IMG/VR virus record: IMGVR_UViG_3300028364_000023
Span: 1-64,000 of that record
DNA length: 64,000 bases
Reading direction: 5' to 3' (one strand)
Source of the DNA: a virus
A program made the position numbers and the translations under genes. A model generated the notes under the pieces. That model did not search any database, was not told the DNA's origin, and saw nothing but the letters and a program-made list of their open reading frames with translations. This document shows positions 2,412 through 63,142 of the stretch, piece by piece (positions within the stretch are counted from its first letter, which is position 1; each line of letters begins with the position of its first letter).

Positions 2412-3424
2412 TCTTGGTATAGCTTCTTAGATGCTAAACCTTTCATTTTCGACTCACACATAATATCTGCGGTGTTAAGAAACTGCAATGCCCATTCGTT
2501 AACTACTTGATTCGGGTACCAATCACTGTGTGCCCGTAATTTCTGCTTTTTGTAACCATCTGCTAACAACATATTCATATCGGGAAACTTGTCATTAACA
2601 TGCTCAACATATTCGGCACGGCTGTACGAATAATGTATTGCAGGACGTACACCTCTCCAGCTATCAATTACACGTAGATATCTATCGTCGGTTGGCTGAA
2701 TGTACTCCCCTTCACGAATAAAGTGATGGTGTATATCACAAACAAGGGCACAATCGTCGACAAGTTCGAGGCTGTGTTCAATGCCCCATTTGTTTTCGTC
2801 ATTTTCGATTGTGATGCAGTTTCTTGCTTCTGGAGATAGTCGTTGGATTGACTCTCGTATGCCTTGCGGGCCTCTTCGACCCGATATATGTATGTTGACT
2901 TTAAAATCTTGGAATTGCTGTCCGAAGCCCATCCATCGTACCATATCTGCATGATATTCAAACTCCTCTATACTGCGCTCAACTATATCAGGAGAATCAC
3001 TAGCTAGTACCAGAAATTGTCCTGGATGGAAGCTGAGCCTTACGTCTTTTGATCTAGCAATATCTCCTGCTTCGAGAAAGTGCTGTTCACAATAGTTGCG
3101 TACATCGGATTGTTTCCAGAAGTAGCTCCAATCCTGCTGAGTATACACTGGCAAACAATCACTGCCTAATCTAATCATTCTACGGTTTTTGGGCAGAGTT
3201 GCTATATGCCCAATCAATAGCTTGTATGAATTAATGTTGTGTACCATAATGTCCCACAAGCGCTGCTCAGCAACTTCACGTGTTTGTCTATTAAGCCACT
3301 GTACAGTAGTACTTTTGGTATTGAGAGGGCGCTGTATTTCTTCTAGCACTTTTTTAGGTTGAGTCTGGTCTGCATCCATAAATTTGCATGCCCATCCGAT
3401 TCTTGGTATATTCTGATCAAACAT
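2393..3424 (-). CDS. uvsE: UV-damage endonuclease (UvdE/UvsE family)
   Basis: Metal-dependent UV endonuclease, a TIM-barrel enzyme that nicks 5' of cyclobutane dimers and 6-4 photoproducts to start excision repair. The family motifs are visible: RIGWACK at the N-terminus, LSFHPGQF in the middle, TIENDE, and CDIHHH for metal binding. Length (343 residues) is near the family norm. I start at the ATG at 3424: it begins just before RIGWACK and lies downstream of a consensus promoter at 3456-3483, whereas the longer frame would start upstream of that promoter. The 3' end overlaps the repeat-bearing paralogue. Confidence 0.88.
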   Translation of the reverse strand: MFDQNIPRIGWACKFMDADQTQPKKVLEEIQRPLNTKSTTVQWLNRQTREVAEQRLWDIMVHNINSYKLLIGHIATLPKNRRMIRLGSDCLPVYTQQDWSYFWKQSDVRNYCEQHFLEAGDIARSKDVRLSFHPGQFLVLASDSPDIVERSIEEFEYHADMVRWMGFGQQFQDFKVNIHISGRRGPQGIRESIQRLSPEARNCITIENDENKWGIEHSLELVDDCALVCDIHHHFIREGEYIQPTDDRYLRVIDSWRGVRPAIHYSYSRAEYVEHVNDKFPDMNMLLADGYKKQKLRAHSDWYPNQVVNEWALQFLNTADIMCESKMKGLASKKLYQEWMASQ

Positions 3425-29553: not shown

Positions 29554-29766
29554 TTAGAATCCTCCGCCTACTGTGACAATAGCAATTTTAGTATTTTTAA
29601 AGCCTAGCTTTCTAAGCTGCTTAATGGCATTGTTGATATCTGAGTAATCAAAGGTGTCTGATGAAAGCCCTGTTTGTGTTAAGCTGTCAAATTCTGAAGA
29701 AGTCCAAACTGAATTCAGTATTGGCATATCAAAGTCGCCGTACTCATGTAATGCTACTACTAACAT
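29554..29766 (-). CDS. Unknown 70-residue protein
   Basis: Alpha/beta, ends KIAVVTVGGGF-like; no motif recognised. Last reading frame before the 330-base noncoding stretch. Confidence 0.55.
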   Translation of the reverse strand: MLVVALHEYGDFDMPILNSVWTSSEFDSLTQTGLSSDTFDYSDINNAIKQLRKLGFKNTKIAIVTVGGGF

Positions 29767-29769
29767 ACG

Positions 29770-30020
29770 TCACCTATTAATTATTTACAAAATTAGCTAG
29801 ACAGTTACTATTCCACTGCCAAGTCACCTACACTTTTACCATCTAGTGCTACTACATTTTAGTACGTAGTCAAAGCAATCCGGCGCATTTCAGCTTTCGT
29901 GTATTAGACAAGGTTCTTAATATGGGTACACCGTTTGGTTGTCTAACTTAACTAACGGTATCTTACCAATTCTGGCATATTGCTATGCTTAGTCTAAGGA
30001 CATTATACTGCCCAGTTACT
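29770..30020 (-). ncRNA. Noncoding transcript after a boxB-boxA leader
   Basis: About 250 bases with no ORF and no standard tRNA. A 63-base tRNA-like piece ending AATATG/CATATT lies near 29920-29985, and an 11-base repeat (cagttactatt) marks both ends. Transcribed from promoter 30063-30091. Confidence 0.4.
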
Positions 30021-30052
30021 ATTGTTAAAGAACGTGTTAACGTTTTGCTAAC
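30021..30052 (-). promoter_or_regulatory. boxB-boxA antitermination site
   Basis: On the transcript: hairpin GTTAGC-AAAAC-GTTAAC (boxB-like), then CGTTCTTTAACAAT, which matches the bacterial rRNA-leader boxA bound by NusB/NusE (S10). A close copy lies at 39911-39943. Confidence 0.7.
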
Positions 30053-30062
30053 CTATGTACTA

Positions 30063-30091
30063 ATTATAGTGTCTAACGTTGTTGCTGTCAA
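30063..30091 (-). promoter_or_regulatory. Consensus sigma70 promoter
   Basis: TTGACA, 17 bp, TATAAT on the minus strand, directly ahead of the boxB-boxA site. Confidence 0.88.
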
Positions 30092-38466: not shown

Positions 38467-38537
38467 TGGCGCGTCGACGAGGTTACGATCCTCACAAGAT
38501 CGGTTTTGGAGACCAATCAGTACCCAGTACCCGACGC
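38467..38537 (-). tRNA. tRNA-Trp(CCA), short D-arm
   Basis: Acceptor GCGTCGG/TCGACGC, stem TTGGT/ACCGA with loop CTCCAAA, T-arm GAGG-ATCGTAA-CCTC, G73 and CCA. D-arm only GTAC-TGG-GTAC. Its first 21 bases overlap the 3' end of the HNH gene. Confidence 0.82.
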
Positions 38538-39212
38538 ATATAAAACTTCTTTAGCCCACTTGCCTACCCCGGACTTTAACGAATATGAATTGCCATATCC
38601 CATTTTGTCGAGTGCTGTCGAGAAGGCATAACCTTCTTCTATTAGGCTAATAAACTTGTCTTTTCTTTTCAAAAATTCTAATTCGTTTTTTGTTACACGA
38701 CTTAGCTGTAATTTAGTAAGGCATCCTTGACAATATTTTGCATGCTGTGAAGTAATTTTAACCAGACAACCAGTACAATGCTTCTGTGTTGATTTTCTCC
38801 CTTTAATCCAGCCTATTGGAACATTTTCTTTAAGAAACTTCCCGTTTTCTAAAGTCTCAGGATTATAATACCAGGGCTTCCCGTACGACGAGTTTTCACT
38901 TCCTTTTCGTTTTCTACACTCGCTAATGTAACGTTTCTTTATCCATCCGTACTGTTTATTACTACGCAAATTCTTTCTACTACTAACAGTCATCATATTA
39001 GCAGCGTATACCAACTTATGTTCCTTTGGGTGCATCTTAACTAGTAACTGATGTGCTACATAGTGCTCTTCAGGAGTTAATGCTACTATATTCTCTCTGT
39101 CATCTGTGCCGCCTAAGCATCTAGGAACAATATGATGTTTCTCAGTGTAACCGTCAAATACTCGTGTTTTTGCTCGTTCAATCAATGTCGCATAATGTTT
39201 GTTATAGTTCAT
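38517..39212 (-). CDS. HNH homing endonuclease
   Basis: 231 residues from the ATG at 39212. HNH core EKHHIVPRCLGGTDDRENIV ... HYVAHQLLVKMHP near residues 20-55, then a CTGC...CQGC zinc ribbon and a helical C-terminus. GATAAATA lies five bases before the ATG. The frame ends inside tRNA-Trp, and the upstream flank (39229-39282) is a truncated second tRNA-Trp copy. Confidence 0.87.
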   Translation of the reverse strand: MNYNKHYATLIERAKTRVFDGYTEKHHIVPRCLGGTDDRENIVALTPEEHYVAHQLLVKMHPKEHKLVYAANMMTVSSRKNLRSNKQYGWIKKRYISECRKRKGSENSSYGKPWYYNPETLENGKFLKENVPIGWIKGRKSTQKHCTGCLVKITSQHAKYCQGCLTKLQLSRVTKNELEFLKRKDKFISLIEEGYAFSTALDKMGYGNSYSLKSGVGKWAKEVLYASGTGY

Positions 39213-39217
39213 ACGAC

Positions 39218-39225
39218 TATTTATC
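39218..39225 (-). promoter_or_regulatory. Late-promoter-like GATAAATA box
   Basis: Five bases before the HNH gene start. Confidence 0.4.
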
Positions 39226-39228
39226 ATT

Positions 39229-39282
39229 TTGCGAACCCCGCTTACTGGTTTTGGAGACCAATCCGTACCCTGTACCTGAGGC
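39229..39282 (-). pseudogene. tRNA-Trp fragment, cut in the T-loop
   Basis: Same D-arm and anticodon arm as the intact tRNA-Trp (a shared run through CTCCAAAACC), then GGGG-TTCG and a break into the HNH promoter region. Confidence 0.7.
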
Positions 39283-39290
39283 ATAAACTT

Positions 39291-39392
39291 TTACTTTATT
39301 TCTACAATAAAAAACTCTTGTTTGGATTCTGAGTCTTCACAAAAACTTTTCCAACTTTCTGCTGCTCCACGGTCTATTATTGTCCTAGACAT
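39291..39392 (-). CDS. Short peptide or remnant of a larger gene
   Basis: 33 residues from an ATG (MSRTIIDRGAAESWKSFC), in a frame that looks coding and is open about 16 codons further upstream with no start. Could be the tail of a lost gene. Rest of the 39283-39498 gap shows nothing clear. Confidence 0.3.
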   Translation of the reverse strand: MSRTIIDRGAAESWKSFCEDSESKQEFFIVEIK

Positions 39393-39799: not shown

Positions 39800-39800
39800 G

Positions 39801-39896
39801 AGGAAGGTGGAGGAATCGAACCCCTACCTGTTTTGCAAATACCCTGGAGTTCAAATCCAGTTGCCATCCAATTAGCGGCACCTTCCGATAAACTTT
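39801..39896 (-). tRNA. tRNA-Ser(UGA)
   Basis: Acceptor GGAAGGT/ACCTTCC, stem CTGGA/TCCAG, loop TTTGAAC, long variable arm, TTCGATT. CCA not encoded. Confidence 0.85.
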
Positions 39897-39910: not shown

Positions 39911-39943
39911 ATTGTTAAAGAGCGTGTTAGCTGTTTTGCTAAC
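39911..39943 (-). promoter_or_regulatory. boxB-boxA antitermination site
   Basis: Hairpin GTTAGC-AAAACA-GCTAAC then CGCTCTTTAACAAT, a near-perfect bacterial rrn boxA. Leads the tRNA-Ser operon. Confidence 0.75.
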
Positions 39944-39953
39944 CTATGCACTA

Positions 39954-39982
39954 AGTATATGGCCTGTGCACTTGCCTGTCAA
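39954..39982 (-). promoter_or_regulatory. Sigma70-type promoter for tRNA-Ser operon
   Basis: TTGACA, 17 bp, TATACT on the minus strand. Confidence 0.84.
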
Positions 39983-58839: not shown

Positions 58840-60030
58840 TTAACTTGTTTCATGATTAAGTATTGTAAGTTTATACAACCGCTTAATATTTTCGTCACTA
58901 GTCATAGCAGCTTCACCTGCAGGGAATCTTCCGCCAATTACATTCTGTGCGTATTCTAAAGATATGTCTGGATCTTTTGCAATAGCTGCCTCGCCCGGTG
59001 GCCACGTACCGTCGACTACGTGAAGTGCATACGCAAGGGACAAATAGCTTTTGCTAGCTATATAAGCAAGCGCTTCTTTGGTAAGGTCTTGTAAATCCCC
59101 GAATATTTCGTAGTTGGGTCCATCTTCATCTTCATCTTCGTCTTCATTATTTTGTTCTAGTTGTTTAATTGTCTTTGCAGTGACACCTTTCAAATATTTA
59201 ATAGATCCCGTTACATTTGTAGCAACTAGAGTTTGTAGTTGTTGATCTAATTCGACTAGACCGTTGGCTTGATATAGTATTATTAAATATCTTTTTATTG
59301 ACTTTGCGTCCTTAACCCTCAACAGCATTGTTTCAATTTTTGCACTGCGCCGCGGAGCATCCATTTGTACTAATTTTTCAATAAGACTTTTTAGATTCTC
59401 TAAGTCGGCTTTCATTACGTCTCGACTAGCAGTGGCTTGTTGGCCAACCTCAGTTTCTCCTCCGACTAGTTCGGCGTACTTGTTGCTGTCTAGTCCTGTT
59501 TGTTGATTGAATTCTTCCATAGATAATGATGTATCTTGCTGGTCAAAATACTCTGGCCCTTTCTTTGTACTAACTGTCATGGCCCACATAGCACCATCTG
59601 ACTGACGAAAGAAATAGATTAATGTAACGCTGAAGTCACGAAAGTATTGTTCAAAATGGTTTTGAGTGGGTTTGGTTGTGCACCAATCACTGTTCTTGCC
59701 GTGAAAGCAACTGGCGTCCTTGTCCAATGGTACTACAATTAGCCACTCGTCAGTTTCTTCTAATACGTAGCTATTTCCTTTTTTAGTGCGAGCTTTTTGT
59801 TCTGAAGAGCTAGGGCGTTCGTCAATGGCTGTTACGTATTCAGTAAATGCAGACCATCCCTGTTTGCCCCACCAATCAATATTTCTTTCTTGACCTGAGA
59901 TGCGATTGGCACTTACTAATTTTTTGAAGATATCAAAAGCACTTGCTACCTCTGTAGGATCCGCCTCCTGGCTAAACTTCTGTTGTACTTCCTTGTAACC
60001 TTCGGTTAATTTAAACTCGTTATATCTCAT
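58840..60030 (-). CDS. Repeat protein, tandem paralogue 1
   Basis: 396 residues. N-terminal domain (residues about 1-190) shared with the next two genes: VQQKFSQEADPTEVASAFD, IDWWGKQGW, then VVPLDKDASCFHGKNSDWCTT and a late YFFRQSDGAMWAM. A short C-terminal stretch of the repeat follows (WPPGEAAIA, RFPAGEAAM). An acidic DEDEDEDG run interrupts the middle. AAGGACC precedes the ATG. Function unknown. Confidence 0.75.
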   Translation of the reverse strand: MRYNEFKLTEGYKEVQQKFSQEADPTEVASAFDIFKKLVSANRISGQERNIDWWGKQGWSAFTEYVTAIDERPSSSEQKARTKKGNSYVLEETDEWLIVVPLDKDASCFHGKNSDWCTTKPTQNHFEQYFRDFSVTLIYFFRQSDGAMWAMTVSTKKGPEYFDQQDTSLSMEEFNQQTGLDSNKYAELVGGETEVGQQATASRDVMKADLENLKSLIEKLVQMDAPRRSAKIETMLLRVKDAKSIKRYLIILYQANGLVELDQQLQTLVATNVTGSIKYLKGVTAKTIKQLEQNNEDEDEDEDGPNYEIFGDLQDLTKEALAYIASKSYLSLAYALHVVDGTWPPGEAAIAKDPDISLEYAQNVIGGRFPAGEAAMTSDENIKRLYKLTILNHETS

Positions 60031-60056
60031 ACTGGTCCTTTATTTTTGTATGCCTA

Positions 60057-61367
60057 TTAACCGATGCCAAACCGTTTTTTGTATGCATTCCACGCCGATT
60101 GTGCTTTACGTATTGCATTCTCTCCTTTTAAAAATCGATCTTCTAGTACTTCTGTAGCATATCGAAAAGAGTAATTAGTGTGCGTGGCAATTGCAGCTTC
60201 TCCAGGAGGCCATGCTTTGTTGAGTACTGCATGTGCATACATAAATGAACCGGAGCTATTGTTGGCAATAGCAGATTCGGCTTCGGGCCACTCGCGTTTT
60301 AATATATCTCGGGCGTATAACGCTGCATAATAACCATCTTGTGCAATTACAACTTCGCCCAGAGGCCATCTACCCTTTATTACTATAGCAGCATAAGCAA
60401 CAGCCAATGCTCCTCTACTAGCTATATAAGCAAGTACTTGTTTAGTAGGATTTCGGACATTATTTATTACTTCACCAGGCGTAGCATTTCTTTCCATTAT
60501 TTTAACTGTCTTTATACTAACGTCTTGTAAATATCTAACAGCATCAGTAGAAATATTAGCAACAAGAGTTTGCAGTTGTTGATCTATTTCCACTGGCCCA
60601 CTTTGCTTGTGTAATATTTTAAAATATTCTTCTATTAATCTTGGATCCTTAACCTGTAACATCATTGTTTCTATTTTTGCACTTCGTTGCGGAGCATCCA
60701 TTTGTTCTAATTTTTTAAGAAAGTCCTTTAGATTTTTTAAACTAGCTCGCATTTCTTTACGACTAGCAGCAGTTTTTTTACCTATCTCTGTTTTACCGCC
60801 TACCATCTCAATGTACTTGTTGCTGTCTAGACCTGTCTGCTTGTTGAATTCAATTACATCAAGCGATTGGTCTTTTTGATTAAAGTATTCTGCTCCTTTA
60901 TTTGGAGCAACAGCCATAGCCCACATGGCGCCATCTGACTGACGGAAGAAATAGATCAGTGTAATAGCTTTGCCACGGAAGTACGATTCGAAGTGTGCTT
61001 GCGTTGGCTTGGTGGTACACCAGCTACTTTTTTTGCCGTAGAAACAACTGGCGTCTTTGTCTAGTGGCACTACAATGAACCAGTCAGCAGATTCCTCTAT
61101 TACGTGACTCGTGCCTTTGTTTTTTCGCATCTTTTGTTCAGAAGAACTAGGTCTTTCATCAATTGCAGTCACGTACTCACTAAATGCGGACCACCCCTGT
61201 TTGCCCCACCAATCAATATTTCGTTCTTGGCCTGAGATGCGATTGTCACTGACCAACTTTTTGAACACGTCGAAAGCAGACGCTACCTCAGTAGGATCTG
61301 CTTCCTGACTAAACTTCAGTTGTACTTCCTTGAAGCCCTCGTTTAGTTTAAATTCGTTATATCTCAT
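60057..61367 (-). CDS. Repeat protein, tandem paralogue 2
   Basis: 436 residues, same N-terminal domain with CFYGKKSSWCTT, then about five repeat units built on [RK][WF]P-x-[GA]E-x-x-I and YA. Ends ENAIRKAQSAWNAYKKRFGIG, the same end as the partial fourth gene. Function unknown; the repeats look like a solenoid. Confidence 0.78.
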   Translation of the reverse strand: MRYNEFKLNEGFKEVQLKFSQEADPTEVASAFDVFKKLVSDNRISGQERNIDWWGKQGWSAFSEYVTAIDERPSSSEQKMRKNKGTSHVIEESADWFIVVPLDKDASCFYGKKSSWCTTKPTQAHFESYFRGKAITLIYFFRQSDGAMWAMAVAPNKGAEYFNQKDQSLDVIEFNKQTGLDSNKYIEMVGGKTEIGKKTAASRKEMRASLKNLKDFLKKLEQMDAPQRSAKIETMMLQVKDPRLIEEYFKILHKQSGPVEIDQQLQTLVANISTDAVRYLQDVSIKTVKIMERNATPGEVINNVRNPTKQVLAYIASRGALAVAYAAIVIKGRWPLGEVVIAQDGYYAALYARDILKREWPEAESAIANNSSGSFMYAHAVLNKAWPPGEAAIATHTNYSFRYATEVLEDRFLKGENAIRKAQSAWNAYKKRFGIG

Positions 61368-61378
61368 AATAGATCCTG

Positions 61379-63142
61379 TTAATTGTTACGAATCGGATTT
61401 AAAAAGCTTGAATACGCCCTTCTAAAATCATAATCTTTATCAATAGCAGCTTCACCTGGAGGCCATTTGCCTTTTATCACATCCTTTGCATAGGCATACG
61501 CAGTTGCAGCCTCTGCGGCAATAACAGCCTCACCTTGTGGCCATCTGCCTCTTATGACATTTCTTGCGTAGTCAATAGAAGTATATGCGTCTGTAAGAAT
61601 AGCAGCTTCACCTTCTGGAAACCTTCCTTTAATTATCAGGTCAGCATATTTATAAGCTGTTTCGGCATCTTGGGCAATAGCAGCTTCTCCTTCTGGAAAC
61701 CTTCCTTTAATTATCTCGCGAGCATACTTATAGGCCGTATCTGCATCTGAGGCAATAGCAGCCTCACCTTGTGGCCATCTGCCTCTTACGACATTTCTTG
61801 CGTAGTCAATAGAAGTATATGCGTCTTGTGCAATAGCAGCTTCACCAGGCGGCCACCTAACACGATCGTTGCCAAAGGTACTTCTGTTGATTACTGCGCT
61901 GGCATATCTATAGGCTGATTGTGTATCGGTAACAATAGCAGCTTCTCCCGGGGGCCAGGGGCCTTTAATTATCTGGTCAGCATACATATAGGCTGCTTCT
62001 GCATTTGTGGCAATAGCAGCTTCGCCGGGCGGCCACCTAACTTTCTCGTCCCAAGGCCCACCACCGTCGTTGATTACTTCTCTAGCATAGCTGAACGCTG
62101 ATTGTGCATCTGCGGCAATAGCAGCTTCGCCTAGAGGCCACTGACCCTCGATCACATATCTTGCGTATGCGACTGCTAGTCTACCTGTGTCGGTAATGTA
62201 TTCCATCGCTTCTTTAGAAGGGTGCCGCAAGTTTTTCATCATATGCCTGAGATCTTCTTGCCTTCCTAGTATTTTAACTGTCTTTACACTAACATTGTTC
62301 AAAAATCTAATACCAACCGCCCCATCACCGCCAGCAACTAGACTTTGTAGTTGTTGATCTACCTCCACTGGTCCGCTATAATTATATAGTGTCCTTAAAT
62401 AATCTTTTATTAGTCTAGAGTCTTTAACTTTCAACAGTAAGGTTTCAATCTTTGCACTTCGGCGTGGGTTACTCATTTGTTCTAATTTTTTAATGTAACC
62501 TGTTAAGGTGTTAAAGTCGGTCTTCATGATGTCTCGATTAATAGTGGCCTTTTGTCCAACATCAGTTTTACCGCCAACTAGCTCGGTGTATTTGTTGGGA
62601 TCCAGACCTGTTTGCTTCTCGAATTCTTCATCATCAAGCGAATCATCCTGCTGATCAAAATACTCTGCTTTTTTATTGGGATAAACTGCCATAGCCCACA
62701 TGGCTCCATCTGACTGACGAAAGAAGTAGATCAGTGTAACGTCATAGTCGCGAAAGTAAGATTCGAAATGGCCTTGTGTTGGCTTAGTTGTGCACCAATC
62801 GCTTTTTTTACCGTGAAAGCAACTGGCGTCCTTGTCCAGTGGGACGACAATAAACCACTCGGCAGTTTCTTCTAGTACATGACTTTCACCTTTGCCTTTT
62901 CGAGCTTTTTGTTCGGCCTCGCTAGGTCGTTCATCAATGGCGGTCACGTATTCAATAAACGCAGGCCACCCCTGTTTGCCCCACCAATCAATATTGCGTT
63001 CGTTGCCTTTGATGCGATTAGCACTTACTAGTTTTTTGAACACGTCAAAAGCACTTGCTACTTCAGTAGGATCTGCTTCTTGACTGAACTTCTGTTGTAC
63101 TTCCTTGTATCCCTCGTTTAGCTTAAACTCTTGATATCTCAT
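61379..63142 (-). CDS. Repeat protein, tandem paralogue 3 (longest complete)
   Basis: 587 residues. N-terminal domain as above (CFHGKKSDWCTT), followed by about ten to eleven units of roughly 26 residues (GRWPxGEAAIA ... YAxxVI). A three-unit block around DAYTSIDYARNV appears twice, a recent higher-order duplication. GGTCC-type spacing before the ATG is weak but AAGGACC is present. Function unknown. Confidence 0.8.
   Translation of the reverse strand: MRYQEFKLNEGYKEVQQKFSQEADPTEVASAFDVFKKLVSANRIKGNERNIDWWGKQGWPAFIEYVTAIDERPSEAEQKARKGKGESHVLEETAEWFIVVPLDKDASCFHGKKSDWCTTKPTQGHFESYFRDYDVTLIYFFRQSDGAMWAMAVYPNKKAEYFDQQDDSLDDEEFEKQTGLDPNKYTELVGGKTDVGQKATINRDIMKTDFNTLTGYIKKLEQMSNPRRSAKIETLLLKVKDSRLIKDYLRTLYNYSGPVEVDQQLQSLVAGGDGAVGIRFLNNVSVKTVKILGRQEDLRHMMKNLRHPSKEAMEYITDTGRLAVAYARYVIEGQWPLGEAAIAADAQSAFSYAREVINDGGGPWDEKVRWPPGEAAIATNAEAAYMYADQIIKGPWPPGEAAIVTDTQSAYRYASAVINRSTFGNDRVRWPPGEAAIAQDAYTSIDYARNVVRGRWPQGEAAIASDADTAYKYAREIIKGRFPEGEAAIAQDAETAYKYADLIIKGRFPEGEAAILTDAYTSIDYARNVIRGRWPQGEAVIAAEAATAYAYAKDVIKGKWPPGEAAIDKDYDFRRAYSSFLNPIRNN

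Follow-up and report, generated by a model that had tools for sequence, protein, structure and literature searches.

A conserved leader precedes a region without protein genes

The window (the whole 64-kb stretch of viral DNA analyzed here) contains, on its minus strand, a leader of the kind found in bacterial rRNA operons, and this raises the question of which RNA such a leader would serve in a phage. The preliminary description placed a boxB-like hairpin and then boxA directly behind a perfect sigma70 promoter, and both the order and the coordinates were confirmed. Read along the minus strand from 30091 to 30021, the arrangement is promoter, ten bases, hairpin, two bases, and GTTCTTTAACAAT. 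The features are as follows.

30063..30091, minus strand: sigma70 promoter, copy 1, TTGACA-17-TATAAT (12/12 match to consensus)
30091-30086, minus strand: TTGACA box, copy 1 (read directly)
30068-30063, minus strand: TATAAT box, copy 1 (read directly, 17 nt after TTGACA)
30036..30052, minus strand: boxB-like hairpin, copy 1, GTTAGC-AAAAC-GTTAAC (six pairs, one of them G.U)
30023..30033, minus strand: boxA, copy 1, GTTCTTTAACA (exact match to GYTCTTTAANA)
29554..29766, minus strand: 70-aa ORF, the first protein gene 3' of the leader (same place in relative L192)

Judging from the promoter position, the transcript would start near 30057, with boxA predicted to lie approximately 24 to 34 nt into the RNA. 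BoxA matches exactly the gammaproteobacterial consensus, GYTCTTTAANA (PMC5725501). This motif occurs three times in the 64-kb window (0.48 expected), and the combined promoter and boxA arrangement occurs twice (copies 1 and 2), compared with 0.00 times in 100 shuffles. The leader of Escherichia coli rrnB P2 (K-12 record) is likewise built from a promoter, a short start, a hairpin, 2 to 4 nt, and GCTCTTTAACAAT; the similarity to rrnB extends past the copy 1 boxA through AAT to 30021, and in the phage, too, an untranslated structured RNA lies downstream. The phage-borne leader differs in its shorter, AT-rich hairpin and in its clients, which are GOLLD and RNA X (see below) or tRNAs. The exact leader was absent from the bacterial genomes searched, and therefore no donor rrn operon was found. 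The exact consensus boxA, the rrnB P2 layout, the presence of two copies, and conservation in relatives together give good support to the view that the leader is rRNA-style. It also proved correct that about 250 bases without a protein follow it: past the leader, the minus strand has no ORF of 40 aa or longer until the one at 29766 is reached, and approximately 257 nt separate boxA from that first ORF. Near-perfect TTGACA-17-TATAAT promoters are frequent in the window generally (20, compared with 0.6 expected), and 19 of the 20 are on the minus strand.

Close relatives carry a GOLLD RNA that the window lacks

A search with a neighboring protein recovered a close relative, L192 (neighboring protein 95% identical), whose contig starts within the 3' arm of the leader hairpin. 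BoxA comes next, and GOLLD begins about 42 nt behind it; the part matching Rfam model RF02032, of which the leader is not a component, spans 421 to 882 (160.7 bits). This GOLLD has a tRNA inside and is followed by a hairpin with a T-rich tract, a trailer stretch that we designate RNA X, and the 70-aa ORF. Bases 1 to 65 of L192 align with window positions 30039 to 29975 (97% identical) and bases 943 to 1152 with 29974 to 29766 (89 to 94% identical). The intervening 877 nt (66 to 942), which comprise GOLLD and the terminator-like hairpin, have no counterpart in the window. The alignment defines the following features.

29974..29975, minus strand: deletion junction, at which L192 bases 66 to 942 are absent
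29975..29988, minus strand: remnant of the GOLLD 5' end (first hairpin), GCATA-GCAA-TATGC, aligned with L192; variants occur in L004 and G022
29790..29974, minus strand: RNA X, a conserved structured noncoding RNA, 3' of GOLLD in relatives (from comparison and fold)

No long direct repeat was found at the junction. In a more distant relative, L004, the leader is 93.7% identical to that of the window and is followed by a 119-aa ORF, a GOLLD with an internal tRNA (168.5 bits; RF02032 cutoff, 150), and a stretch 80% identical to window positions 29973 to 29791. Over 14.8 kb, a separate record (L003) has the same sequence as the window. No GOLLD (RF02032, >150 bits) was detected in the window or in the whole 101-kb record; that record is a fragment, and a GOLLD may lie elsewhere in the phage genome. 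As the more distant L004 has GOLLD at the same place, the simplest reading of the alignments is that GOLLD was lost in the window's lineage. The 119-aa ORF (L004 10466 to 10825), which lies between boxA and GOLLD and by eye resembles a GIY-YIG nuclease, is absent from L192 and so is probably an insertion. In another GOLLD-bearing contig (L185, 214 kb), the tRNA within GOLLD (3133 to 3206) has the anticodon TTA and would read the stop codon UAA.

RNA X is 93% identical in L192 (943 to 1130) and 80% identical in L004. It is predicted to fold with a closing helix, and 7 of 39 pairs are compensated (two sequences). The consensus fold of three sequences scored −37.0, compared with −21.5 ± 3.8 for column shuffles (0/300). 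The covariation term of that run, as computed, was not favorable, and when the whole transcript was folded from one sequence the result was not unusual (z, −0.8), so that support for the proposed structure comes from the consensus fold together with the compensated pairs. RNA X matched no Rfam family, and a search of named phages and further viral contigs returned nothing beyond L003 and L004. On these alignments RNA X appears to have survived the loss of GOLLD. The link between leader and noncoding RNA made in the preliminary description is thus strongly supported by comparison, but the GOLLD client and its deletion had been missed: what was described as a noncoding transcript reads, by alignment, as the deletion scar of a giant noncoding RNA plus a conserved trailer RNA and is more than empty sequence.

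The leader is common at GOLLD loci

Phages encode GOLLD in the neighborhood of tRNAs. Its level increases during lysis, and the RNA forms 14-mer cages, to which no function is assigned (PMC12286853). A single GOLLD-specific sequence pattern returned 87 viral stretches, and of 38 records tested, 35 were GOLLD by Rfam; this set comes from one pattern and partly related contigs. The boxA motif was present upstream in 24 of the 35 GOLLD loci whose upstream sequence was long enough, compared with a mean of 0.22 for column-permuted motifs (0 of 2,000 permutations reached 24). Within 70 nt of a promoter, boxA was found at 23 of 37 GOLLD promoters but at 3 of the 111 other promoters of those contigs (Fisher's P = 2e-14), and the reversed motif was found at none of the 37.

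Most GOLLD leaders consist of promoter, hairpin, and boxA, as in AAGACGA-GAAA-TCGTCTT AG CTCTTTGAAAATTG and GCTGA-GAAA-TCAGC AACG TTCTTTAAAAA. A stem of at least 4 pairs precedes boxA in 15 of 17 nonredundant leaders, and the loop is GNRA in 10 of the 17 (combined P = 2.5e-12). The stem sequence varies between phages, and the pairing is kept. The boxA motif as written was absent from 11 of the 35 loci, two of which (L271 and L287) have ATCTTTAA.A leaders. Many GOLLD leaders carry TCTTTGAAA or TCTTTAAAA, which we take to be the boxA of other phyla. Searches of draft host genomes for TCTTTGAAAA.TG gave chance matches only.

Two further candidates for a leader-bearing RNA, the giant abundant noncoding RNA of ICP1 and the ROOL RNA of L. 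salivarius plasmid pMP118, have no boxA. ROOL (RF03087) was not detected in 50 leader-bearing records, including that of the window, with a search that does detect the known ROOL plasmid. In GTDB genomes the GOLLD pattern gave 95 matches; no match carried more than one GOLLD 3' signature, and the five inspected looked like chance. The window also encodes three tandem paralogues of 396 to 587 aa (58840 to 63142, minus strand; phrog_17056; function not assigned); for the one that was compared, the only match among named phages was Salicola jumbo phage SCTP-2, and this phage has no such leader.

No link between GOLLD and boxA was found in the papers searched, although an earlier mention elsewhere is possible. 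The ICP1 transcriptome was the only searched text to mention both "GOLLD" and "antitermination," and it contains no boxA. The published survey of boxA left out noncoding RNAs by its own statement (PMC5725501). The leader described here would represent an established regulatory element with a new type of client, one that the alignments indicate was deleted in the window phage.

A second copy of the leader opens a tRNA array

The second copy (39982 to 39911) opens a tRNA array, 24 nt before the first tRNA-Ser.

39954..39982, minus strand: promoter, copy 2, TTGACA-17-TATACT (promoter scan)
39926..39943, minus strand: boxB-like hairpin, copy 2, GTTAGC-AAAACA-GCTAAC (from the sequence)
39913..39923, minus strand: boxA, copy 2, GCTCTTTAACA (GYTCTTTAANA match)
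39800..39886, minus strand: tRNA-Ser, first gene behind copy 2 (tRNA call)

Hairpin, spacing, and boxA are common to both copies, and the G.U pair of the copy 1 stem is G-C in copy 2 and in L004. In the boxA region, copy 2 and E. coli rrnB are identical over 13 nt, GCTCTTTAACAAT.

In viral contigs, a unit of promoter plus TCTTTAACAA occurred in at least 119 stretches, compared with 59 for reversed boxA. Among the matches listed, a tRNA lay within 1 kb of the unit in 18 of 52 dereplicated cases, compared with 1 of 27 for reversed boxA (P = 0.002), and the first tRNA was often 13 to 17 nt away. Promoter-plus-boxA units are enriched before phage tRNA arrays; since the set was chosen for boxA, the 18 of 52 indicates association and not the frequency of the leader among tRNA arrays. 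The unselected comparison, within the same GOLLD contigs, is weaker, with boxA found within 70 nt at 5 of 49 tRNA promoters compared with 3 of 111 other promoters (Fisher's P = 0.06). One part of the scan, in which TCTTTAACAAAGG stands before ATGACTCAAGAG, was set aside: its members form a single redundant family, have a start codon a short way downstream, and are unlikely to represent boxA.

Two small pieces of the array that were not called as tRNAs (39799 to 39678 and 39680 to 39596, minus strand) each lie between the arms of a perfect inverted repeat (23 and 19 bp, respectively), which recalls the stems at which RNase III processes rRNA. At 38502 to 39298 (minus strand), a 52-nt stretch overlapping a tRNA-Trp gene is duplicated (81%) and flanks a 255-aa ORF that by eye has the look of a homing nuclease, as if inserted at the tRNA.

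Proposed function of the leader and alternative explanations

We consider it probable that copy 1 is an antitermination leader of the rRNA type and belongs to a phage unit for noncoding RNA. Transcription by the host RNA polymerase would start at the consensus sigma70 promoter, and within the first 35 nt or so of RNA the boxB-like hairpin would fold and boxA become exposed. BoxA is necessary and sufficient to recruit the rrn antitermination factors, and the resulting complex blocks Rho and may also act as a folding chaperone (PMC10250234). By analogy, the phage boxA would recruit NusB-NusE and then NusA, NusG, and SuhB; no NusB or NusG homologue was found in the 101-kb record, which makes the host factors the likely partners. 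The modified polymerase would resist Rho across the long untranslated RNA, as the preliminary description had proposed from known rrn biology, and may aid its folding, a role also proposed for rRNA. The unit in relatives consists of leader, GOLLD, terminator-like hairpin, and RNA X. In the window phage the leader would drive the GOLLD scar and RNA X and, since the terminator-like hairpin is deleted, would probably carry transcription past RNA X to the small genes from 29766 onward. Copy 2 would serve the tRNA array likewise.

There is perhaps an even chance that the arrangement is general, such that phages across several host groups use rRNA-type Nus antitermination for GOLLD and for tRNA arrays, with the rRNA transcription machinery of the host making and possibly folding or assembling GOLLD, and that natural GOLLD deletions leave the leader and RNA X. 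An rRNA operon-type leader would tell how GOLLD RNAs are made and extend boxA control to a class of phage noncoding RNAs and to tRNA arrays; its sharing suggests that GOLLD needs the Nus machinery for completion or folding. BoxA point mutants would offer a clean handle to lower GOLLD in a phage, and the GOLLD-less window phage and the near-identical, GOLLD-bearing L192 form a natural comparison pair.

The loop of lambda boxB is GNRA-like. GNRA-type loops are also common in GOLLD leaders, and lambdoid nut sites likewise place boxA and a hairpin in a phage leader and use host Nus factors, so that the hairpin could in principle be a true boxB, bound by a phage N-like protein as in lambda, in a complex that overrides intrinsic terminators too. 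We consider this very unlikely. The window has the rrn order, with the hairpin preceding boxA, whereas boxA precedes boxB in lambda nut, and on this ground the leader was rejected as a lambda-type nut site; moreover, the window loop is AAAAC and not GNRA, the hairpin sequence varies freely among phages, the window clients are noncoding, and L192 keeps a terminator-like hairpin directly 3' of GOLLD. Still less probable is that the hairpin, which lies near the 5' end and has conserved stems, shields the RNA from RNase E and that the resemblance to boxA is accidental: no part of the leader is as constant as boxA, which stands right after the stem and is nearly absent at other promoters of the same contigs. 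BoxA does act outside rRNA operons in E. coli, where it represses the coding gene suhB (PMC5725501). That the phage boxA similarly controls a nearby coding gene, through Rho termination or translation, is nevertheless extremely improbable, as the first ORF is approximately 257 nt past boxA and either a full GOLLD (L192) or a tRNA (copy 2) follows boxA instead.

Two other explanations concern what the Nus complex would do and whether copy 1 still does it. The complex recruited by boxA might act mainly as a cotranscriptional chaperone for GOLLD assembly, with Rho resistance secondary. A contribution to rRNA folding has been proposed for the rrn complex (rrnTAC), and loss of boxA lowers 30S quality (PMC10250234); GOLLD, in turn, is large and builds a 14-mer cage, but T7 transcripts of it form cages in vitro (PMC12286853), and the leader also stands before simple tRNA arrays. 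We regard a primarily folding role as possible but doubtful. It is somewhat less likely that copy 1, with GOLLD deleted in the window, is a functionless and decaying relic, since its promoter, hairpin, and boxA are all intact and the RNA X behind it is still about 93% identical to that of L192.
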